DNA of 64,000 nt from Coriobacteriales bacterium (GTDB lineage Bacteria; Actinomycetota; Coriobacteriia; Coriobacteriales; UBA8131): positions 1 through 64,000 of the forward strand of contig JAITDU010000056.1 of NCBI GenBank assembly GCA_031282405.1. The letters run 5' to 3'. Every line of letters starts with the position of its first letter. Positions within the stretch are counted from its first letter, which is position 1. The notes below the pieces were generated by a model. The model was not told the DNA's origin and searched no databases. It worked only from the letters and a program-made list of their open reading frames with translations. The position numbers and the translations under genes were made by a program. Positions 113 to 60,722 of the stretch are shown here, one piece after another.

Positions 113-263
113 GGGTAAGAAGAGAAGGCCTAACGACGTGAGCGATGATTGTCCCAATGGAAAAACGTTACTTGTAATATCATGAAAGGTAGTTTATTAT
201 AGTTAATTGAAAATAGTCTATTATCTGATTAGACTTAAATATGAAGGTATGAAGGGAGAACGC

Positions 264-3200
264 ATGAGAAGCACCAAAAAGCTACGACACGCTATCATGT
301 CTGCTATATTGGCTATTATGCTGGTGTTAGGTTTGACACCGGCTATGGCTTGGGCAGATATCGCTGATGGCGACGGGTTTAGCTATGCTAGCGATACTCA
401 GACCCTGACCCTGGATGGCTCTACGATAGATTCGTCTGGAGCGGGCGAAGACAGCGCAGGAATAATAGCCCTGTTCGCACAATTGCTTGTAGACAACTCC
501 AGCATCAAAGCTACAGATATCAAGAAGGTAGATATCGTTGAGGCCGATGCCGACGCTCTACAATTTGCTGCGGCAGTCCTTTGGGCGCAAAATACTCCAA
601 GTGAGGAGGTTAACGATGATTCATACAGTAGTGTCAAGGACTTCTTCCCCGAAACTGCTCAAACAACCCTTACTAATGTCTCGGTTGGGGTAGGAGCAAA
701 TGGGAGCATCAGTCTGGCGGGCTGGCAAGCTGCCTTTGAAGAACCTTTGCCTAATACTATTACCCTGGCCTTTAGCGTAAAAGCTGGCGGCACACTTGAT
801 TTAAGCGACAACGTTCTTTTTGCTGGCTTGCGAACTATCTCAGTTGTTGCAGACTACACAAAAACCACTGTTACAGCCGAAGCAAACAGCACGCTTAAAA
901 TAGGCACTGCTGCCATGGCGGCACTGGGCAAAACTGCCTCACAGCCGGCCAATAACCTTACGCTCAGTAATGATGCTATAGTGAATGCCAGCGCTGCTTC
1001 TGAGCCGGCTGCCTTAACGTGGGCCGATCGTGTGGGCTACGGCCGCGCTAATCCAAACCTTATTACCAAGGTTTTGCCCACTCTGGCAAATGACGGTACC
1101 ATCGAGGTTGAAGATGTCATAGCCGGTGGTTTGCAGGCCGCTATTGACAGCGCCCTGGCCGCCCAGGTCATCGATACCAGCGACGAGGCCACCAGGGTTG
1201 ACGGCTACAACGCGATTAAAAAACTGGTGGTTGCCGGCGAACTTAACGATGCCGATATGGCGTTTTTGACCCACAAGAGGTCTCTGTTGAACTCACCCGC
1301 GGCTTCCGCAGGCATCAATGCGACCTATTACAAGGACTACCTGAGCAACATTGAGGTGTTGGACCTGGGTCAAACGGCTTATGTTGCCGAAAACCGTATG
1401 TTGGGCACATTGGCCAATATGAATGATAATGACCGCTTTTTTGGCACAGACACTGCTAATTGGGCTTCTCTGGTTCCCAAGAAGCTAACCACACTTATAA
1501 TGCCTAAACAAGGTGATACGTACGATATCAACCAAGCGTTTTTTGCCAGGATAACCACGCTCACATCCCTGGACCTGTCCAATGTAAATTTTCTTAAGAA
1601 CCTTGTGTTGCGCGGCAATACAGCGCTTAAGGCTATAAATCTAACAGGTATTACTAAAGTAACCAATAATGCTTTTAACGAAGCATCCAATATCAAGCTG
1701 ATCCTTTTGCCCGACGACCCCAGTCAGATAGGCGGTACTAGTGTCTCTGGCATAGAAGACGGCTCCGCCCTAAATGCTTTTAGATTGCCCAATGGCAGCT
1801 TAAGCAACTATGAGTCGGTAAAAATCCCCGGTCTTGTCTACGCCAGTGCCCACCCCGAGAACTGGCAAGGCGAGATTACCTCGGGCAACAAGACCGGCTT
1901 GTTCCCGTACAACCAAGAGACCTATGGGACTGTCGTAGGATACGGCATAGACAAGACAGCGGCAGCCGACAAGAATACCGGCGGTATCACCCCCGGTACA
2001 GAGGTTGTCTTGTCAGCCAAACCCTCAACGTTTGAGGATGGCAGCTACCAGTGGTACAAGGATGGTGTGGCTATCAGCGGTGCCACGAATGCCACCTATA
2101 CAATCAACTCGCTTGAGGATACCGATGAGGGAGAATATACGGTCGCGATTTTTGGTCTGCTCATCCCTGGGTCCGAACGTGTCTACACTTCGAGCTTTAA
2201 GGTCTACAAGCAAACCGGTACTGACGTAGACAATAAAACCCTGATAAAAGAATACAATGCCTATGAGTTCGTCGATATGGCCGATACGGATCCCCTGGGC
2301 TTTTTGGCCGGCAGTGGTCATGGTGCCAGCGCCAGGATGCGTGTTTATGCCACCACCCAATATGTAACGCTCCCCACTATCCTGAGCGATGCGTTTGACT
2401 TTGAGGCCATAGAAGATGACCACAAAATCATTATTAGCGCTCCTGACGGCTGGACCAGCAATCTCAGTGCCGAAGTGGTCAATGGGCCATTATATTATTA
2501 TCCCACAGCTACCAATCAGGGCGATATTGAGGCCGACGATGACGGGGAGATAGTTCCGCCTGTGCTGGCAATCAAGTGGGCTTCACCCGACATTGCCACT
2601 GCTGCCGCTAATGCCCTTACCGCCGGCATCGAAAGCTCCTACGCTTCTGGCAATGTGCGTCTGCTCTATGGTACCACGGCCGAGGCTTACACTTCTGGTA
2701 ATGGCATTGCTACTAATCGTTTTGCCCAATACGTTAATTCCATAACACTGGTAGAGCCGGCGGCCTTTACTATCAGCGAGCGCACCGGCAACGATGCGCC
2801 CAAGGTAGTCAAGGCCTTTAATGCTGAGGAGTTGGATAATCTGGCACAAACAAATCCTCGCGGATTTTTGCACTATGGAGGCAAGAGCACGCCCAATGTG
2901 TGGTCGCTGAGCGTTACAGACAAGTACGTGCCGTTGAGCAACCTGCTCAGCGCGGCCAACGTTAGTTTTGCTGCCAATGACTCAGTGCGTCCGCAGGCAT
3001 CGTTTGACGGATTTGGTACTACACTTACCTATGATGCCATTCAAAACAGCACGTATTTCTATCCTGCCACCACCCAAGACACGCTTGATACAACGGGCGC
3101 AATAGACGTTAGTGCGGTGTTGGCCCTGCAATACAAAACAGATCCTTTTTCCAGTACTGCGGGTGCCGACTTGTCGTCTTTTGTGGATGCCATTGAATCA

Positions 3201-4562
3201 GACAGCGGCTACCGCTTCTTGATGGGTCTTTCTGAAGCTGATTATCTTAGTAAAACCGCTCCGGGCAACCGTTTTGTTACTGGGCCGGATGAGCTTATCG
3301 TAACGCACCGCGTTGATGTAGCCGATGTTACAAACATAGATGTTGCCGCCATTGATCAGCAGGTGTATACCGGTAGCGCCTTAACCCCGGAGCCGGCGGT
3401 AACGTACAAAGGTACGCCACTGATTAAAGATACGGACTACACTCTCAGCTACGCCAACAACATTAGGGCCGGTACGGCTCAGGTTACGGTTAGCGGTATT
3501 GGCAACTTCTATGGCACGACCAGCTCTGACTTTACGATACTGCGCTACGCACTTGCTCCCAATAGCGGCACTCCTATTGCCGAGGGCAGCTATGTACTCA
3601 AGTCCACGGGATCGTTGTTCAGGGTTCTGGATGTTTATGGTGGTGCGGTACAAAATGGTGGCAACATCACGCAGTATGCTTACCATGGTGATGAAAACCA
3701 ACAGTTCTACGTTACACAAGATGACGACGGTTACTATGTTATCGAGTTTGCTAATACCAATCAGGTTCTGGATATCTCAGGTGCCTCTACTGCTCTTGGC
3801 ACGGATGTTGTTCAGTATCGATATTCGGGCAGCTTTAACCAGAAGTGGTATCTCACCCAAAACGGCGATGGTAGCTATGTTATCCACTCTGCGCTTGCGT
3901 ATCTTACCCCAGGCGCTGGCGATTTGGCCATAGATATTTGGGGTGGCGCGGACACCAACGCTGCTCCCCTCAAGACTTATACCGCCCATGGAGGCATCAA
4001 CCAGAGCTTTGAGTTCATCCCGGTTGAGGACGCTGCAGCGCTCTTTGGCCCCGAAGGAGACCCGATCAATACCAAGGTAGAAAGCCAGACCAGCGTAGAA
4101 GCCGACGCCGGCACCACTTACTATCGGATAGTGCCAGTCCATGCTCCCGATAGCGCTCTTGATATATATGGTGGCACCTCGGCTCCCGGCTCGACTTTAG
4201 TGCAGTGGAATTCGCATGGTAACGATAACCAGCTGTTTTACTTAGTCAAAGATGCGGATGGCTACTACACTATCCACTCCAAGCTGTCTGGCCTTGCCCT
4301 GGATGTTTACGGCGGCATTGCCTACAGCGGCGCGTCGGTGGTTCAGTGGGGTCATCATGGTCAGAGCAACCAACAATGGGTGCTGAGACAGGCAGTCGGT
4401 TCCAGTTCAGAGGACGCAGATCCGGTTGTAAGTATTCTCTCCAAGCAAAGTAATATGGCTTGGGACGTCTGGGGTGCCTCGACTACCGAAGGCTCTCCTA
4501 TAACCACCTACCCCTATCACGGAGGCCAGAACCAACAGTTCAAACTGGTCGAGGTAGTGTAA
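264..4562 (+). CDS. Large secreted multi-domain adhesin with C-terminal ricin-type lectin repeats
   Basis: The protein has 1432 residues. ATG 264 is chosen because it follows a GGGAG Shine-Dalgarno and opens a Sec signal peptide (basic MRSTKKLRH, hydrophobic core, AMA-WA cleavage region near residue 30). In order: a Ser/Thr-rich beta-rich N-terminal region; a leucine-rich stretch near 400-540 resembling BspA-type repeats; an Ig-like domain near 600-670 (YQWYKDG, DEGEYTV); two copies of an unfamiliar ~150-residue module (EYNAYEF...DPLGFL and AFNAEEL...NPRGFL); an MBG-like domain near 1040-1110; then about three ricin B-type trefoil units rich in LDVYGG and NQQF/NQKW motifs. No LPXTG-type anchor is visible, so it is probably released or held non-covalently. 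A glycan-binding adhesin role is inferred from the lectin repeats. Confidence 0.75.
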   Translation: MRSTKKLRHAIMSAILAIMLVLGLTPAMAWADIADGDGFSYASDTQTLTLDGSTIDSSGAGEDSAGIIALFAQLLVDNSSIKATDIKKVDIVEADADALQFAAAVLWAQNTPSEEVNDDSYSSVKDFFPETAQTTLTNVSVGVGANGSISLAGWQAAFEEPLPNTITLAFSVKAGGTLDLSDNVLFAGLRTISVVADYTKTTVTAEANSTLKIGTAAMAALGKTASQPANNLTLSNDAIVNASAASEPAALTWADRVGYGRANPNLITKVLPTLANDGTIEVEDVIAGGLQAAIDSALAAQVIDTSDEATRVDGYNAIKKLVVAGELNDADMAFLTHKRSLLNSPAASAGINATYYKDYLSNIEVLDLGQTAYVAENRMLGTLANMNDNDRFFGTDTANWASLVPKKLTTLIMPKQGDTYDINQAFFARITTLTSLDLSNVNFLKNLVLRGNTALKAINLTGITKVTNNAFNEASNIKLILLPDDPSQIGGTSVSGIEDGSALNAFRLPNGSLSNYESVKIPGLVYASAHPENWQGEITSGNKTGLFPYNQETYGTVVGYGIDKTAAADKNTGGITPGTEVVLSAKPSTFEDGSYQWYKDGVAISGATNATYTINSLEDTDEGEYTVAIFGLLIPGSERVYTSSFKVYKQTGTDVDNKTLIKEYNAYEFVDMADTDPLGFLAGSGHGASARMRVYATTQYVTLPTILSDAFDFEAIEDDHKIIISAPDGWTSNLSAEVVNGPLYYYPTATNQGDIEADDDGEIVPPVLAIKWASPDIATAAANALTAGIESSYASGNVRLLYGTTAEAYTSGNGIATNRFAQYVNSITLVEPAAFTISERTGNDAPKVVKAFNAEELDNLAQTNPRGFLHYGGKSTPNVWSLSVTDKYVPLSNLLSAANVSFAANDSVRPQASFDGFGTTLTYDAIQNSTYFYPATTQDTLDTTGAIDVSAVLALQYKTDPFSSTAGADLSSFVDAIESDSGYRFLMGLSEADYLSKTAPGNRFVTGPDELIVTHRVDVADVTNIDVAAIDQQVYTGSALTPEPAVTYKGTPLIKDTDYTLSYANNIRAGTAQVTVSGIGNFYGTTSSDFTILRYALAPNSGTPIAEGSYVLKSTGSLFRVLDVYGGAVQNGGNITQYAYHGDENQQFYVTQDDDGYYVIEFANTNQVLDISGASTALGTDVVQYRYSGSFNQKWYLTQNGDGSYVIHSALAYLTPGAGDLAIDIWGGADTNAAPLKTYTAHGGINQSFEFIPVEDAAALFGPEGDPINTKVESQTSVEADAGTTYYRIVPVHAPDSALDIYGGTSAPGSTLVQWNSHGNDNQLFYLVKDADGYYTIHSKLSGLALDVYGGIAYSGASVVQWGHHGQSNQQWVLRQAVGSSSEDADPVVSILSKQSNMAWDVWGASTTEGSPITTYPYHGGQNQQFKLVEVV

Positions 4563-11500: not shown

Positions 11501-11625
11501 GTGGCGCGATTGGCCTGCGTCTTGGTCTGCGACTCCAACCCGTGATTTTGGTTTGCGATGCGGTTTGTTGTTTCAATTTGCGGTTTGATGTGCCGTTCCA
11601 ATCCGAGGCTGTTTGTTGGAGCACA

Positions 11626-12492
11626 ATGCCTGAGCATGTTGACAAGAGTAAGAGAGGAAGGAACACCGTCCTGTCCCGGACGCTGCTGATCGGTGCCTGT
11701 GTGCTTATAGCCGCAGCTCTGGCCATTGCTGCCTATGTGGTCTGGGGCTATCTGGATGCCCAGAACCGCTATGCGCACATCGAGACTGTGGCAGGGCTGG
11801 AGGTGGAAACCGAAAACGTCGTGGACAGCGAACTTACTCTGGAAAACCTGCACTTTGACTGGGATGCATTGCGTGGACTGAACCCCGATACTGTGGGCTG
11901 GATCATCGTGCCGGGAACTCACATCAACTATCCTATTGTTCAAGGACTCGATAACTCATATTATCTCTACCATTTGTTTGATGAGTCATCCTCGGGCACC
12001 GGTGCCATTTTTGCCGATTACAAAGGGCCCAGGGGGTTGGACGGCCCCAACAACATGATTTACGGCCACAATATGTGGGACAGTTCAATGTTCTCCGATC
12101 TGATTATGTACACCAGCCAGGACTTCTTCGATGAACACACGGTGGTGTTTTTGGGCACGCCGGCACGAAACTACGAGTTGCGCGCCCTAACCACGTTAAA
12201 GATAGTCGGCACGGCCCCGGTGCGGCTGTTCGACTTTGAGTCCCCGGCCGATTTCCATGCGTATCTGGACAAATTGTTCGTAAATCCGGTGACCACGGCG
12301 GCCGATTTCCAAGAGACCAAGGCCACAACCCCAAGTGTCTACTCCTTTGTCACCTGCAATACCTATGACAACAACTACCGAATAGTGCTGAGCTGTGTCG
12401 TGGTACGCAGCCTGGAACAACAGGCACCGGTACCTGGCGACACAAGCTCGACAGGAGAGACAGGCACTGGGGAGAAGGGCACGGTGGGTTAG
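11626..12492 (+). CDS. Class B-type sortase
   Basis: This 288-residue transpeptidase has an N-terminal membrane anchor (about 20-45) and the sortase fold: GWIIVPGTHINYPIVQG, the catalytic His in MIYGHNM, and the catalytic Cys and Arg in SFVTCNTYDNNYRIV near the C-terminus, the class B arrangement. ATG 11626 follows TTGGAG at proper spacing. Sortases cleave a C-terminal sorting motif and attach the protein to peptidoglycan or pilins. The MPATG-bearing surface protein at 42.5 kb is a candidate substrate in this window, though class B enzymes often prefer other motifs. The stop lies 2 nt before purF. Confidence 0.88.
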   Translation: MPEHVDKSKRGRNTVLSRTLLIGACVLIAAALAIAAYVVWGYLDAQNRYAHIETVAGLEVETENVVDSELTLENLHFDWDALRGLNPDTVGWIIVPGTHINYPIVQGLDNSYYLYHLFDESSSGTGAIFADYKGPRGLDGPNNMIYGHNMWDSSMFSDLIMYTSQDFFDEHTVVFLGTPARNYELRALTTLKIVGTAPVRLFDFESPADFHAYLDKLFVNPVTTAADFQETKATTPSVYSFVTCNTYDNNYRIVLSCVVVRSLEQQAPVPGDTSSTGETGTGEKGTVG

Positions 12493-25003: not shown

Positions 25004-25862
25004 ATGTTGAGAATGAAGTCGAAAATTACGCCGTGGGGGGGGGGCATCACCGTTTAGTTCTGTAGCGCCCCATCCTTACAATTCGGAGTTCAATCACGTT
25101 GCCGTTGCCGCTCACAAACCACATGAGCCAGCGGTTTTTTTGTCCCTGGCGAAAGCTCGCGATGACGGGGGTACGCTGTGCGTGTCCCGCCGCAGTGGCT
25201 TTACGCTCGTAGAGCTTATCGTCGTCATCGTAATTCTCGGCATTCTTGCCGCTATTGCCATACCGGCCCTCACGGGCTATATAAGTAAATCCGAGGACAA
25301 AGAGTACGAGATGCAGGCGCGTGACGCAGCGGTCGCTCTGCGGTCCGTGCTTGTCGAAGCTCACGTCGACGGTACGCTTGACAAGAACCTTAATGCCGAG
25401 AACAAAGAGGGCGGTAGCAAGGCCTATTTCACACAGGGCACTGCCAACTCGACTAGCGCTGGAGCCAAATTCTGGAACACGTCGACTTTTGCGGCACGTA
25501 ACTTTAGCACCGCGCCAGGAAGCGCGCAAGCCGCCGTTAATAGGACGTACTACAACATGGCGAATGAGCTAATGGGCCTCGCTATCCCTTCTTGGTCTGG
25601 AGCGCCTAACTACTGGAGCATCTATTACTATGCGCTTTCTCCATCTGATTACACTATTGTGAGCGCCCCGGCGTGGGAATATGAGTTTTTCCCAGAGGGA
25701 GCAGTAAACGGAAAGCCGATCATCGTGGTTACGTATGGATTCGAAGTCTTCGGCGATTTTGAGTCTTTTAAGGCATATGAGAACGCGCGCACACTCAGCA
25801 ATATGAAAATTGACCCCGCCGTGGGGTACAAAGTTCGCTACATGACCTTTGATAAAACTTGA
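25004..25862 (+). CDS. Phase-variable type IV pilin-like protein, cassette 1 (currently out of frame)
   Basis: ATG 25004 opens MLRMKSKITPW and runs into ten G (25035-25044); as sequenced it ends at TAG 25055-25057 (GGGITV-stop). Deleting one G (or adding two) joins it to the frame ending at 25862: a 65-residue leader, then the class III cleavage site G|FTLVE (mature Phe at 25200, Glu5) with hydrophobic helix IVVIVILGILAAIAIPALTG and a 220-residue mature pilin. In the pilin frame the only likely start after the tract is TTG 25140, with no Shine-Dalgarno. The C-terminal half (SAPAWEYEFFPEG, PIIVVTYG) matches cassette 5. Pilus or pseudopilus subunit is the likely role; the assembly machinery is not in the window. 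Confidence 0.82.
25102..25141 (+). terminator. Intrinsic-terminator-like hairpin inside cassette 1 leader
   Basis: CCGTTGCCGCTCA (25102-25114) pairs with TGAGCCAGCGG (25124-25134) in 11 pairs with a 2-nt bulge and one U-G pair, 9-nt loop, followed directly by seven T (25135-25141). It lies 45 nt after the out-of-frame stop and upstream of the pilin helix codons. Confidence 0.75.
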
Positions 25863-27043: not shown

Positions 27044-27931
27044 ATGAAATCAAAAATTACGCCGGGGGGGGGGGTCTCACCGCTTAGTACGTGCGCTGGC
27101 CTTAGCTCTCGCTTAAACGCTCGCTCTGGCTTTTCAGCCTCCCACCCTCATACCCCAAAGCACAACCACGCCACCACCGCTCCGTTTGAACAGGCGGTCT
27201 TTTTGTATCCGGGTTTGTGCAAGCGAGCAGATTGGCCTAAAAGAAAGGCTTGTCCGAAACGAGCGTATATAACATACGTGAGTGAGGGCACAGCACACGT
27301 GAAGGCCAAGACGTCGCTTTCACAAACTCGGGCAGGCTTTACGCTCGTAGAGCTTATCGTCGTTATTGTCATACTTGGCATCCTTGCCGCCATTGCCATC
27401 CCGGCGCTTACGGGCTATATCTCAAAAGCCGAGGATAAGCAATATGAGATGCGTGCCCGCGATATAAACATAGCCGTGCATGCCGTCATTGATGAGGCCT
27501 GGGCCCAGGGTAATTTTGCCACGACTCAATACTTCAATGAGGGCGTTACTGCTTATCAGGCTTTTAAGTATTTTGATACTGGGACACTGTCAGCCAATGC
27601 CTACGATTGGTACCACGTAGCTGAACTCTACGAAAGAGCTGCTGCTCTGCTTGGAGAGCAGTATGTAGGGTGGCCCTATTATCTCTATCTTTGTACTGCC
27701 CAGGGCTCCGATGCCACTGCGGCCACAGCCGACGGGTTTCTCTGGGAACTGTACTATGAGGGCAGTACTCCTGGCAAACCGAACATCACCGTCACCTATA
27801 AACTGACCCGTTACGACGGGCCATCCTTTCAGGACAATTTTTGGGATGCTCTTGGCCAGGGTACCATCACTTATGACGCTAACGCTGGCTATGAGGTCTA
27901 CCACTTCGCTTATGGTGGGCAGTGGGATTAG
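27044..27931 (+). CDS. Phase-variable type IV pilin-like protein, cassette 2 (in frame, ON)
   Basis: This is the only cassette whose leader and pilin are one open frame: 295 residues. MKSKITPGGG is encoded by the G tract (11 G at 27064-27074), then a 98-residue leader ends at G|FTLVE (mature Phe at 27338), with the standard N-terminal helix and a mature part of 197 residues. The leader is far longer than the 6-30 residues usual for type IV prepilins. The C-terminal region (GSDATAATAD, TYKLTR, YDANAGYEVYHF) matches cassette 4 closely, defining a second pilin subtype. Function as pilus or pseudopilus subunit is inferred. Confidence 0.88.
   Translation: MKSKITPGGGVSPLSTCAGLSSRLNARSGFSASHPHTPKHNHATTAPFEQAVFLYPGLCKRADWPKRKACPKRAYITYVSEGTAHVKAKTSLSQTRAGFTLVELIVVIVILGILAAIAIPALTGYISKAEDKQYEMRARDINIAVHAVIDEAWAQGNFATTQYFNEGVTAYQAFKYFDTGTLSANAYDWYHVAELYERAAALLGEQYVGWPYYLYLCTAQGSDATAATADGFLWELYYEGSTPGKPNITVTYKLTRYDGPSFQDNFWDALGQGTITYDANAGYEVYHFAYGGQWD
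27176..27204 (+). terminator. Weak terminator-like hairpin inside cassette 2 leader
   Basis: ACCGCT (27176-27181) pairs with GGCGGT (27193-27198) including one U-G pair, loop 11 nt, followed by CTTTTT (27199-27204). It is at the same place as the stronger hairpins of cassettes 1, 4 and 5. Confidence 0.5.
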
Positions 27932-29793: not shown

Positions 29794-30199
29794 TAGAGGA
29801 GCACTAATGTTTCAAAGCAGCATGACTGGCCTTTGGTTTGTGTTAATATAATCCCTGTCAAAAGCACAATACGTCTGTTGGAAGCATCACAACTAAGATC
29901 GGGGGGAGCAAAAACAATGTTGAGAATTACGCCGTGGGGGGGGGGCATCACCATCTAGAGCTGGCCTGATCCCTCTTTCTTGGTAGGTACGATCATCTCC
30001 CTGTTTGCTCCGTGCTTGTACAAACGAGGCATTTGCACAAAATAGTATTTGCGCAAAAGAGGCATTTGCACAAAGCACAACATAATTTTTCTTGTTTTTG
30101 CACAAAATGCCACAAAAAAACAAGTTGCCTATGCACAAAACGAACAAGAGCATAAAAAGCAGTACGTTGGTGTACGTACTGACATTTTTCTCTGATTGA
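29794..30199 (+). pseudogene. Orphan pilin cassette head (cassette 3) and A/T-rich spacer
   Basis: The head is intact: extended -10 TGT-TAATAT (29841-29849), 20-bp repeats at 29854 and 29874, Shine-Dalgarno GGGGGGAG, ATG 29917, MLRITPW, ten G (29936-29945), GGGITI-stop at 29956-29958. Shifting by one G gives only 13 more codons before TAG, and no pilin follows. Downstream, GAGGCATTTGCACAAA occurs at 30026-30041 and 30059-30074 with a partial copy between. This is a cassette that lost its pilin body, or a head awaiting one. Confidence 0.7.
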
Positions 30200-31746: not shown

Positions 31747-32521
31747 ATGACATCGAGAATTACGCCGTGGGGGGGGGGCATCACCGTCTAGTTCTGTAGC
31801 GCCCCATCCTCACAATTCGGAGTTTAACCACGCCGCCGCTGTTCATTCTGAACAAGCGGTCTTTTTATGCTCTGGGGAGAAAAGCGACCGTAGTGGCTTT
31901 ACGCTCGTAGAGCTTATTGTCGTCATCGTAATTCTCGGAATTCTTGCGGCTATAGCCATACCGGCGCTCACGGGCTACATAAGCAAGGCCGAGGACAAAC
32001 AGTGGGAAATGCGTGCCCGCGATATAAACATAGCCGTGAAAACCGTCATTGACGAGGCGTGGGCCCGGGGTGATTTTGCCGACAATGGTGCACACTACGG
32101 TGGTGATCCTGCTCTAGCTTTTGCGCAAGGAGTGGATGACCTTCCTCCCTACAAGCACTTTCAACTCTTCGCATTGTCTCACTCTGCTTATTCCGATTCC
32201 TTAAAACTCTATAGAGAAGCCGCCCGTCTGATCGGCGAGGAGTATGAAGCGACTGACGTTACCGATCCCGGCTTCTGGGAGATTCACTATCTTGCCCCTG
32301 CAGGTTCCGACGCCACGGCTGCCACGGCCGACGCGTTTATCTTTGCCTTTTTCCTCGAAGGCATTTATGATGCTGGTGAGCCACTCATTGGTGTTTCCTA
32401 CAAGCTGACCCGTCTTGATGGAATGGCGACGGTAAACGATTATCTTGCTGCCCTCGAGAGTGGTGACATCGCCTATGATGCAAATGCCGGCTATGAGGTC
32501 TATCATCTTGTCCAACCATAA
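31747..32521 (+). CDS. Phase-variable type IV pilin-like protein, cassette 4 (currently out of frame)
   Basis: ATG 31747 encodes MTSRITPW, ten G (31769-31778), then GGGITV-stop at 31789-31791. With one G removed the frame continues to 32521: a 50-residue leader, G|FTLVE (mature Phe at 31898) and a 207-residue mature pilin. Between the G tract and the pilin core there is no in-frame ATG, GTG or TTG until an ATG after the hydrophobic helix (32009), so a complete pilin can be made only through the tract. C-terminal GSDATAATADAF, SYKLTR and YDANAGYEVYHL place it with cassette 2; the leader spacer matches cassette 1. Confidence 0.85.
31836..31866 (+). terminator. Intrinsic-terminator-like hairpin inside cassette 4 leader
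   Basis: CCGCTGTTC (31836-31844) pairs with GAACAAGCGG (31850-31859) in nine pairs with one bulged A, 5-nt loop, followed by TCTTTTT (31860-31866). It begins 44 nt after the out-of-frame stop. Confidence 0.8.
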
Positions 32522-42306: not shown

Positions 42307-42506
42307 CGCCAGAGAGCGGCATCAAGGAAATGGCTTTAGCCGTATGTGTGTGCATTGCCTTGCGAGACAACTACGGCTACAATTATATTCACGAATGCGA
42401 GCAGGGCCAAACGAGGATAGGCAGGCCCGGATAATCATCTTGTGCGAAGGAAGGCATGACAGAGGTCGTTTGTGGCTATGAGCAGTATTTGGGAGAGGAG
42501 CGCCAC

Positions 42507-44585
42507 ATGGCAACGAGGATAAAGGCACGGGCCCGAAAGACCGCGGCTTTGGTAGTTACTATATTGTTGATGTTGACCATTGTGCCCGGTTTGGCTTTTG
42601 CCGATAATTCGGCGGAGGGGGGGGGGCATCTCGTTGTTTTGGACACAGCAATGGTAGATGAACTCAGCCCGTTTGGCGCAACCGATAGAGAGCCGACATA
42701 TGGGATAAGTCCGCTTGCCACAACCGTAACGGATGATGCCACGTTACGTGCAGCCGTAGTAGCTGCGCCCACAGACGGCACTCTCTGCACCATTGTTTTT
42801 GGCAGCGACATTGTGCTTGTGAGCTCAGACCTGCAAATCCCAACCGACACGAACATAGCTATCGACGGGGCGGGCTACACACTCACGGCTGCTCCTGACA
42901 ACAGGGTTATCTCGCTTACAGGCGCTACCCTGACACTTGCCGGTATCACGGTTACCGGTGGTAACGCAGTCTACGATGCCTATAGCTCCACCCTGAAAGG
43001 TCTCGGCGGCGGTATCTATGCCGAGAACTCCACCATAATCCTGGACGGCAATGCCACGGTTTCCGATAACGTGGCAGGTAAGATTGGCGGCGGTATTTAT
43101 GCCAGAGCCTCCACGGTAACCTTGGCCGACTCCGCCATGGTGTCCGGCAACACAGCCGCTGATAGCGGCGGCGGCATCGCGGCCCTTGGTCTCTCCCCTG
43201 ATCTCTCCGCCGTTACTCTGAATGATTCTGCCACGGTGTCGGGCAATAGTGCTACAGGCCCAGCAAGCGTCGGCGGCGGTATCTTTGTCGCCCTCGTCAC
43301 CCTTACTCTCAACGGCTCCGCTACGGTGTCGGGCAATTCATCCATTACAGACAAGAACAGCGGCGGCGCTGGTATCTTTGCTGGTTCATCGATCGTGGAA
43401 ATGAATGAGTCCGCCACAGTGTCAAACAACACGGCCACAAACGCTGCGGGCATTTTTACCATGGAATCTACGGTTACTCTCAATGATTCCGCCACGGTAT
43501 CGAGCAATACAGCTACGGGCGATGCGGGCACGGGTGGCGGCATTGGAACCATGTTCTACGAAGACTCTACGATCACGCTTAACGGTTCTGCCACGGTATC
43601 GGGCAACACAGCCGTTGACGGCGGCGGCATCTTTGTTGGCGAGTCTAACTCTCTTGCGCTCAACGACTCCGCCACCGTGTCAAACAACACGGCCACTGAC
43701 AACGGCGGCGGCATTTACGCTGAGGACGCCTCTCTGATCATCCTCGACGACTCTGCTGCGCTGCTCGGCAATGTGGCCGGGGCTGACGGCGGCGGCATCT
43801 ATACTGATGACTATGTAACACTCTCCATTCCCACCGGCGCGACGGTGACGTTTTCCCAGAACAGATCCGCTTTGCGCTATTATCCCGATACTAGGCCACC
43901 GGTATACGATGGCGCGGAGTTTACTGGTACGGTCGTGTCCATCACGCCCTTGTGGCAAGAAGAGCCGGGCTGGGCTTTTAAGAACCTGGTGTTTAACAAC
44001 AACGACATCAACTACACCACTAACGACCCCCTCCTCGTGGTAACGTTTGATGCCAATGGCGGCACTGAGCCTGATCCCCGAGAAAAAGCGGTTGTTGCGG
44101 GCAGCCCTTATGGCGACCTCGCCGCCGTCGCGCGCGCCGGCTATACGTTTATCGGCTGGTTTACCGCGCCTGACGATACTGGCACAGAGATAACCGCCGA
44201 CACGGTGGTAGCCATAACGGCGGCTCAGGTGCTTTACGCCCACTGGTCGCCGCGCTCCTATACCGTGCGCTTTTTGGATTATGACGGCACTACCGTTTTA
44301 AGATCCGAGCAGGTGGCATATGGTGCAGCGGCTACTCCTCCAGCCGATCCACAGCGCGCGGGCTACAGCTTTACCGGCTGGGACAAGAGCTTTACCAACA
44401 TCACGGCCGATATCGACATAATCGCTCTGTACCAGGCTGATAGCGTGCCGTCTGAGCCGGATACCGAGATGCCTGCGACAGGAGATGCTTCTGTCTTGTT
44501 CCTGACCTTGGCTGCCGCAGCCTTTGTGGTGGGTGCGAGTCTGCTGGTAGTACGTTTTCGCCATCGGTCTGCTGCGACTGTCTGA
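42507..44585 (+). CDS. MPATG-anchored beta-helix surface protein with a G10 tract after the signal peptide
   Basis: ATG 42507 follows GAGGAG and opens a signal peptide (MATRIKARARKTAALVV..., cleavage near GLAFA-DN at residue 33). Ten G at 42617-42626 encode GGG at 38-40; the frame is open as sequenced, and any one-base change would truncate the protein. Then comes a parallel beta-helix made of SATVSGNTA and GGGI repeats (about 130-430), two InlB/Flg_new-type repeats (about 510-655) and a sorting signal: MPATGD, a hydrophobic helix and RFRHRSA. The protein should be sorted to the wall, possibly by a sortase such as that at 11.6 kb. An adhesin role is inferred. Confidence 0.88.
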   Translation: MATRIKARARKTAALVVTILLMLTIVPGLAFADNSAEGGGHLVVLDTAMVDELSPFGATDREPTYGISPLATTVTDDATLRAAVVAAPTDGTLCTIVFGSDIVLVSSDLQIPTDTNIAIDGAGYTLTAAPDNRVISLTGATLTLAGITVTGGNAVYDAYSSTLKGLGGGIYAENSTIILDGNATVSDNVAGKIGGGIYARASTVTLADSAMVSGNTAADSGGGIAALGLSPDLSAVTLNDSATVSGNSATGPASVGGGIFVALVTLTLNGSATVSGNSSITDKNSGGAGIFAGSSIVEMNESATVSNNTATNAAGIFTMESTVTLNDSATVSSNTATGDAGTGGGIGTMFYEDSTITLNGSATVSGNTAVDGGGIFVGESNSLALNDSATVSNNTATDNGGGIYAEDASLIILDDSAALLGNVAGADGGGIYTDDYVTLSIPTGATVTFSQNRSALRYYPDTRPPVYDGAEFTGTVVSITPLWQEEPGWAFKNLVFNNNDINYTTNDPLLVVTFDANGGTEPDPREKAVVAGSPYGDLAAVARAGYTFIGWFTAPDDTGTEITADTVVAITAAQVLYAHWSPRSYTVRFLDYDGTTVLRSEQVAYGAAATPPADPQRAGYSFTGWDKSFTNITADIDIIALYQADSVPSEPDTEMPATGDASVLFLTLAAAAFVVGASLLVVRFRHRSAATV
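42617..42626 (+). repeat. G10 homopolymer, candidate contingency tract
   Basis: Ten consecutive G followed by CATC, the same G10-CATC string found in pilin cassettes 1, 3 and 4. It sits four codons after the predicted signal cleavage site. Confidence 0.75.
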
Positions 44586-44769
44586 CCCACTGACGCAGGC
44601 GATATTTGCGGAGCAGCATTGCCAAAGAGGCGTTGCGGGAGCGAGGACTGTCTGAGGGTAGCACTTACTTTGTGTCAAAGTAAGTGCTACCCGAGTTCCG
44701 CAGTTGCAACGACTCTTTGACAATGCGGGTGCGGAGTCATGAGCCTGCGTCAGTGGGTCAGACAGTCGC
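44574..44769. repeat. 196-bp imperfect inverted repeat (foldback element or large terminator)
   Basis: Outer arms of 27 bp (44574-44600 and 44743-44769, starting GCGACTGTCTGACCC) are perfectly complementary. Inner arms GGGTAGCACTTACTTTG (44656-44672) and its complement (44676-44692) are perfect around a 3-nt loop. Between them GCATTG-CAAAGAG-CGTTGC segments also pair. The left arm covers the last codons and stop of the surface-protein gene. It lies between convergent genes. Confidence 0.8.
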
Positions 44770-59830: not shown

Positions 59831-60722
59831 ATGAAGTCACAAATTACGCCGGGGGGGGGGGGCATCACCGTCTCGTAGTGGTCTGAACGTTGGCCTGAAC
59901 ACTGGCCTGAACTTGCACGCTCGCACGAGCCTGGTAGCGCTCTGGCCTCACAACCAACCGCACGACTATGTTGCTGCCGCTGTTGTCGTAGACAATCAAG
60001 CGGTTTTTTCATACCCTGCATCTCGCAGACAAGGCTTCTTGGGCTGCAAAGCTCGCCGGACACCCCTTGTGCACGCTGCCACACAAGGCCGGGCAGGCTT
60101 CACACTTGTCGAACTCATCGTCGTTATTGTAATCCTTGGTATCCTTGCGGCTATTGCCATCCCCGCTCTCACGGGCTACATCGCCAAGGCGCAGGACAAG
60201 GAGTGGGAGATGAAGGCGCGGGACACCGCCATCGCTATGCGCTCAGTCATCGACGAGGCATACGTGAACGGGTCGCTGGAAGATCTGTTCCCCAACGCCA
60301 CGGCCAGGTACAACGCGCTCGTCAAGGGAAGCGAGCTTACTAACGTGAAGTTTTTTTCGATATATGGGATCAGTGGGGCTTCTTTCGCCTATTTTGAAAA
60401 GGCATCGGAGCTGATGGGGGCGCCGTATCCTACCGACACCGACCCTATGACCCCGTATGCTCCCGGCACTTGGTCGTTTTCTTTCGCGGCTCCCAAATCT
60501 GACGACTACAGCATTTACAATGCCCCGGCATGGCAGTACATCTATTATCCCGAGGGCACTGTGCCGGGCGGGCATAAACCCATCGTGATAGTCACCTACG
60601 GCCTTTACGGCATCAAAGGAGATGTCACGACGGAAGATCAGTATAACCTCTCCCGCAATCCCAACGCCAAATACGGCGCCGACGCGGGGTGCCAGGTCTT
60701 CCATGTGACCAGCGTGTTCTGA
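59831..60722 (+). CDS. Phase-variable type IV pilin-like protein, cassette 5 (currently out of frame)
   Basis: ATG 59831 encodes MKSQITP, then twelve G (59851-59862), then GGGITVS-stop at 59876-59878. Loss of one G gives an open frame to 60722: an 89-residue leader, G|FTLVE (mature Phe at 60099) and a 207-residue mature pilin with the shared helix IVVIVILGILAAIAIPALTG. Eleven G, the length in the ON cassette 2 with the same CCGGG context, would restore the frame. NAPAWQYIYYPEG and VTYG in the C-terminal half match cassette 1. It lies 27 kb from the island, alone between unrelated genes. Confidence 0.84.
59975..60007 (+). terminator. Intrinsic-terminator-like hairpin inside cassette 5 leader
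   Basis: CCGCTGTTGTC (59975-59985) pairs with GACAATCAAGCGG (59989-60001) in 11 pairs with two single-base bulges and a 3-nt loop, followed by six T (60002-60007). It lies 96 nt after the out-of-frame stop. Confidence 0.75.

Follow-up and report, generated by a model that had tools for sequence, protein, structure and literature searches.

A G10 tract behind the signal peptide of a predicted MPATG-anchored surface protein: a probable slippage switch in a Coriobacteriales genome

We analysed a 64,000-nucleotide stretch of DNA (the window) that contains a surface protein gene with a run of ten G near its 5′ end. The coding sequence (42507..44585, + strand) comprises 692 codons and its reading frame is open in the assembly. 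A strong Shine–Dalgarno-like sequence, GGGAGAGGAG (42491..42500, +), is situated 6 nt upstream of the ATG at 42507. The 692-aa translation starts with MATRIKARARKTAALVVTILLMLTIVPGLAFA, a predicted Sec signal peptide of ~32 residues (42507..42602, +), whose cleavage site we placed by eye according to the AxA rule and whose residues 8–22 form a helix in the structural model. It continues as DNSAE-GGG-HLVV and ends with MPATG, a TM stretch and RFRHR. The tract itself, the proposed slippage switch, occupies 42617..42626 (+) and is followed by CATC. Counted from the predicted cleavage site, four whole codons precede the one that contains the first G, and the ten G encode Gly-Gly-Gly directly after DNSAE of the mature N-terminus.

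The length of ten at 42617 is taken from the consensus of an assembly, and assemblies can easily get the length of homopolymers wrong. In silico, tracts of 7, 10 and 13 G keep the frame, while lengths of 8, 9, 11, 12 and 14 give stubs of 49–52 aa. A change by one unit thus truncates the computed product, as is characteristic of contingency loci, and the tract is a homopolymer of at least eight within a coding frame, beyond chance expectation. Since the gene is in frame, the locus itself shows no OFF state. The original prediction had placed ten G at 42617–42626, four codons past the predicted cleavage site and before CATC, which is exact in the sequence; its further statements, that the frame is open at present and that a one-base slip would leave the signal peptide with a short out-of-frame tail, agree with the translation, which runs intact through G10, and with the computed stubs. 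Its description of the product as an MPATG surface protein with a signal peptide likewise holds, the signal peptide being predicted by eye and the anchor by its Pfam match (see below).

Residues 108–420 of the protein (42828..43766, +) form a repeated all-beta region, probably a parallel beta-helix, in a single-sequence AlphaFold2 model with pLDDT values of mostly 60–90. Confidence is restricted to this region, and the model shows the tract-bearing N-terminal part as disordered. Two Listeria–Bacteroides (Flg_new) repeats follow (44040..44435, +; the Pfam match covers residues 512–579, with the second copy after it). The MPATG sortase-type motif (44469..44483, +) precedes a hydrophobic stretch and the RFRHR tail, and this region matches PF00746 with 23.3 bits (cut-off 20). 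Pfam assigns Flg_new (twice), Chlam_PMP and Gram_pos_anchor to the protein, and NCBIfam assigns POMP_repeat (TIGR01376, 46.4 bits), List_Bact_rpt and LPXTG_anchor. The top Foldseek rows are parallel beta-helices, among them those of tailspikes, of pertactin and of the pneumococcal adhesin PfbA; no row reaches E ≤ 0.001, and a search of the PDB by sequence gave no relative. PMP repeat motifs are also present in the Chlamydia PMP/POMP autotransporters (TIGR01376); unlike these, the 692-aa protein has no C-terminal autotransporter barrel domain according to Pfam and carries a Gram-positive anchor instead. The C-terminal motif, hydrophobic stretch and basic tail, together with a sortase in the genome, are the features of a sortase-anchored protein. 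Four PF04203 sortase-family loci of the genome score above the cut-off and one below it. The closest sortase gene is located 30 kb from the tract-bearing gene in the same window (11542..12492, +; PF04203 at 11905–12396, 26–28.5 bits against a cut-off of 26.6). We consider a beta-helix adhesin or binding protein anchored in the cell wall the most likely identity of the product, with adhesion as its presumed role.

The gene is flanked by a GGDEF gene upstream and by an Nramp gene downstream on the opposite strand. Directly 3′ of it (window 44580–44765) there is a long inverted repeat, GTCTGACCCACTGACGCAGGC ... GCCTGCGTCAGTGGGTCAGAC, inside which lies a second hairpin, GGGTAGCACTTAC...GTAAGTGCTACCC. 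Elsewhere in the window, 207–4562 encodes a large protein that is exported and contains ricin-type lectin domains; no G tract was seen in it.

Long G runs are far more frequent in this DNA than expected. The window contains six separate runs of at least 10 G (nine overlapping matches), compared with 0.14 matches expected in shuffles. In the whole assembly (2.0 Mb, 57 contigs, 88% complete) 66 G or C runs have a length of 8 or more, 62 of these measure at least 9, and 52 reach at least 10, where a Markov expectation gives ~3.0 genome-wide. The genome-wide search covered lengths from 8 upwards, and shorter runs were counted solely in the 430 kb (21%) around tracts. Within these 430 kb the run lengths are bimodal (G6 46, G7 1, G8 4, G9 10, G10 28, G11 13), and G/C runs peak at 10 with a tail to 18, while A/T runs end at 9. 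Among the 62 runs of G9 or longer, a census by gene class that the original prediction had proposed, ~34 belong by their flanks to type IV pilin cassettes, and non-pilin surface genes are represented in addition.

Five pilin-associated tracts of the window served for comparison, all on the + strand: G10 at 25035..25044 and at 31769..31778 in pilin cassettes, G10 at 29936..29945 and G12 at 59851..59862 in pilin-type leaders, and G11 at 27064..27074 in a cassette with an open frame (ORF 27044–27931, N_methyl domain). Only 4/24 pilin cassettes of this genome and 4/33 of the sister species are in frame (window 25035–59862; L039–L081, L171–L245). The pooled 8/57 compares with an expected third (P = 8.5e-4), so that the cassettes are closed more often than chance would have it. 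Tract lengths are 9–12 in this genome (G000), centred on 10, and mostly 11–14 in the sister species (G001), centred on 12. Three cassettes of the window have exactly G10 followed by CATC (25035, 29936 and 31769), as originally noted; the likeness to 42617 drawn from this did not survive comparison of the flanks, since their similarity is not significant (P = 0.006, uncorrected). A pilin leader module transplanted to non-pilin genes, or a common CATC element, was rejected as a candidate: the position-anchored flank comparison, in which ~60 tracts were tested against three models, gave only P = 0.006 for 42617 and P = 0.008 for C45:64510, both uncorrected. Because these values are weak and uncorrected, we claim no kinship with the pilins on the basis of CATC.

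Five non-pilin surface proteins of differing domain make-up carry a tract within their first 29–55 codons, at or just behind the export signal or leader. Against uniform placement, such N-terminal positions in five surface ORFs of 643–4726 codons have a combined P of 5e-5, for genes chosen after inspection. The paralogue at C7:66556, with an aligned identity of 41% to the tract-bearing protein (P0001), has a signal peptide of its own that is unrelated and immediately followed by G10; the gene is out of frame, and 1139 downstream codons are intact. A protein with L-type lectin, YDG and CBM_X2 domains (C1:113075) has G11 within its signal peptide and is likewise out of frame, with 4455 intact codons downstream. 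A thioester-domain protein with an IPKTD anchor (C24:42227) has an in-frame C10, coding for Pro, inside its signal peptide, and a 4676-codon Big_3_5/CBM_X2 protein (C45:64510) has an in-frame G10 in its leader. The original prediction had suggested that poly-G switching serves different surface structures in this organism; these five tract-bearing non-pilin proteins, two of them (C1 and C7) out of frame over intact downstream codons, support this. Tracts are also found in other settings: G10 splits the leader of a molybdopterin oxidoreductase (C3), a glycine-rich ALK_LTK_GRD protein has an internal in-frame G10 (C6), and C11 is situated just upstream of the start of an RHS-repeat gene (C45:7384). 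A mannose-1-phosphate guanylyltransferase-like gene is divided into two frames by G9 (C32:90506, L068:9507–9515), which hints at a phase-variable surface polysaccharide.

The sister species, the only relative within the genus, has 69 tracts of at least 9, mostly in pilin cassettes with a different leader. A search of it for an orthologue of the 692-aa protein gave none and returned Flg_new repeat matches only. A scan of named genomes gave only remote Flg_new proteins from Lachnospiraceae and Bacteroidales. RpoB scores highest, though narrowly, against chains regarded as actinobacterial, which makes an actinobacterial origin probable. In two genomes of other genera (G004, C52; G020, C41), P0001-like or Flg_new proteins have G13 behind a signal peptide and are out of frame, with a long ORF following. 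Loci in the alternative state, that is, out of frame with a long frame behind, are thus found at C7 and C1 of this genome and in G004 and G020. Two P0001-like/Flg_new genes of G005 have no coding tract, and G16 and G17 lie between TTGACA and TATTGT/TATGCT. For the related genus g4, G16, G17 and G20 separate TTGACA from TATTGT, TATGCT and TACCCT, and two of these three tracts precede surface ORFs of the Flg_new type. A pattern search across the family gave seven such promoter-spacer tract sites in five genomes, and the reversed control pattern gave no sites family-wide. Two further relatives (L247 and L250) are tract-free, and their N-termini are not alignable with the 692-aa protein. Judged by the sequences, the coding G13 of G004 and G020, the spacer tracts of G005 and the tract-free relatives together suggest that genes for this shared kind of surface protein have repeatedly acquired or lost a tract. 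They also suggest that one adhesin family may be gated in two ways in different genera, through the reading frame or through the promoter spacer.

The spacer tracts of the five family genomes range from G9 to G20, between TTGACA and TANNNT-type hexamers (L248, L249 and L255 of G005; L268–L275). In one tract-free relative (L247:3290–3499, G004:C53), short ACCGGCACC-like tandem repeats lie between the start and the signal peptide.

Canonical mismatch repair limits homopolymer slippage in other bacteria. We found mutS1 above the cut-off in 0/33 genomes of the family, with 11/14 controls positive, and NucS in 0/33, with 7/14 controls positive, Corynebacterium glutamicum among them. Canonical mismatch repair thus appears, from these gene searches, to be missing from the family; since the genome studied here is 88% complete, this statement is based on the whole family rather than on one assembly.

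In the Gram-negative genera Neisseria, Campylobacter and Helicobacter, poly-G contingency loci involve different genes. Slippage of G tracts inside surface-structure genes is what they would have in common with 42617 (PMC5953494, PMC6321876, PMC2823697). A closer counterpart is found in Bifidobacterium breve, in two clusters of which a G tract divides the first pilin into two frames, one with the Sec signal and one with the LPXTG motif; this architecture switches experimentally, and by maximum-depth sequencing the tract occurs in a mixture of lengths that changes in the mouse gut (PMC9187656). Annotated tract lengths in Bifidobacterium can differ from those of the population (PMC9187656). In bbr_0113 and bbr_1889 of this actinobacterium, signal and LPXTG-type anchor flank a coding G tract of 10–12 and are joined or separated by slippage, as would be the case at 42617, and in neither system is a second start needed. 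The bifidobacterial tract gene opens a pilin–sortase operon, whereas the 692-codon gene stands alone between the GGDEF and Nramp genes and has no pilin domain. Since it is not in a pilin–sortase operon, the gene at 42507 falls outside the bifidobacterial pilus-operon type; the predicted beta-helix, the Flg_new repeats and the ~34 gated type IV pilin cassettes also distinguish the present system.

Cutibacterium acnes has 54 polymorphic tracts, almost all of them G/C (PMC4746626), including a poly-C at the 5′ end of the dermatan-sulphate-binding adhesin gene PPA2127 and a poly-G in the promoter spacer of PPA1880 (PMC3224659). In our comparison it appears to resemble the present family in its surface adhesins, its G/C homopolymers and the combination of coding-frame and promoter-spacer types; the lengths of its tracts vary mostly by clade, which suggests that they change slowly, and most tracts here are in pilin cassettes. 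Gardnerella has tracts in LPXTG/InlB B-repeat surface proteins, one of which differed between 9 and 10 among colonies by Sanger sequencing (PMC11287997). Like the locus at 42507, these are actinobacterial surface proteins with related repeats; the Gardnerella tracts are mostly upstream of genes, and a genome has a median of 20 G/C tracts with a length of 8 or more, compared with 66 here. A limited literature search gave nothing specific on slippage or phase variation among organisms of the Coriobacteria type. By this comparison, the kind of switch would already be known from Bifidobacterium and Cutibacterium, with a matching architecture and an unusually large set of tracts in the present genome.

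We consider it highly probable that G10 at 42617 is a contingency (phase-variation) switch that acts by slippage. This reading draws on the anatomy of the gene and the frame effects, on the excess and the lengths of tracts, on their repeated placement at export signals, on the out-of-frame copies and on the failure to find MutS1 or NucS; further support comes from the spacer and G13 tracts of relatives, the sortase genes, the switching in B. breve and the colony variation in Gardnerella. Slipped-strand mispairing would add or remove G at 42617. At a frame-keeping length the ribosome would read the signal peptide, the Gly-Gly-Gly linker and the whole beta-helix protein, and a sortase could then anchor the full-length product via MPATG; at other lengths translation would end about a dozen residues past the tract and yield only a dead exported stub. 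Counting the tract at 42617, the non-pilin surface proteins of the genome would carry at least five such switches, beside the ~34 pilin cassettes. We infer that cells of one population differ in tract length and that selection favours the switch.

The tract might instead consist of neutral or fixed GGG codons of a flexible glycine linker that plays no part in switching. Gly-Gly-Gly does fall in a region that is disordered in the model, and the in-frame run of the glycine-rich ALK_LTK_GRD protein (C6) could be of this kind. Nevertheless, GGG is a minor codon that accounts for 11.5% of Gly codons in the other genes of the window, so that three in succession do not reflect codon preference, and a run length distribution that peaks at 10 instead of decaying is hard to reconcile with neutral codons. 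A need for a linker explains neither the C10 (Pro) at the same position in C24 nor the out-of-frame G10 and G11 of C7 and C1, and we regard it as a very improbable account of 42617. The out-of-frame copies are in turn open to the objection that they are homopolymer errors of sequencing or assembly, or decaying pseudogenes; such errors are common, and many ends of the 57 contigs lie at pilin tracts. Decay would not leave intact downstream frames of 1139 and 4455 codons, random errors would favour no single state among the 57 pilin cassettes, and errors do not explain the existence and placement of the tracts, all of which makes this objection very unlikely to hold.

Homopolymer runs can slip in transcription and translation as well, and G10 is long enough for the tract to act through ribosomal or polymerase slippage or G-quadruplex control rather than through heritable change. 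Relatives carry their tracts in promoter spacers, where DNA length alone matters, and the lengths of genomic pilin copies differ both within and between the two species of the genus (9–12 against mostly 11–14), so DNA length does change; a purely RNA-level or translational role for the tract at 42617 is therefore very unlikely.

Beyond the heritable switch at 42617, we tentatively envisage a slippage repertoire throughout the genus, a picture that we rate slightly below an even chance. In a lineage that lacks MutS1 and NucS, it would comprise some 24–40 separately gated type IV pilin cassettes, mostly closed at any time, together with several adhesins that are giant or wall-anchored; each cell would then display few of the pilins and a varying selection of the adhesins, while related genera would gate the same adhesin family via the promoter spacer. 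The loci described here indicate that poly-G switching in this lineage serves surface structures at large rather than being the property of one pilin family. The defined loci with predicted open and closed states make slippage without detectable MutS1 or NucS measurable from metagenomic reads. The weight lies in the scale of the set and its two modes of gating more than in the tract at 42617 alone.

Several tracts of the genome occur in other sequence contexts. The exact 23-base sequence AAAAACACCTAGATGAGCATTTT is present only twice, and both copies immediately precede a long G tract, one being the G14 that lies upstream of the gene for a surface protein (L059:4817–4856, C55) and the other the G18 at the end of another gene (L072:879–921, C35). 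The rplL–rpoB intergenic region contains C10 and G15, which could form a strong hairpin (L073:5021–5057, C39). In both species of the genus, G8–G9 behind a hairpin-like stretch is followed by the conserved TATC(C/T)TAAACTAT(C/A)AAGT (L054, L172, L186); in this genome that tract is situated 369 bases upstream of a 1399-codon gene. Four intergenic tracts share the context CACAT(T/C)AAAAC(T)-Gn-CA(CA)ATGA (L045:186–195, L046:6142–6149, L065:5754–5762 and L077:5104–5112), and three of these sit behind repeated CTTAACC boxes; they are possibly regulated promoters with a tract.
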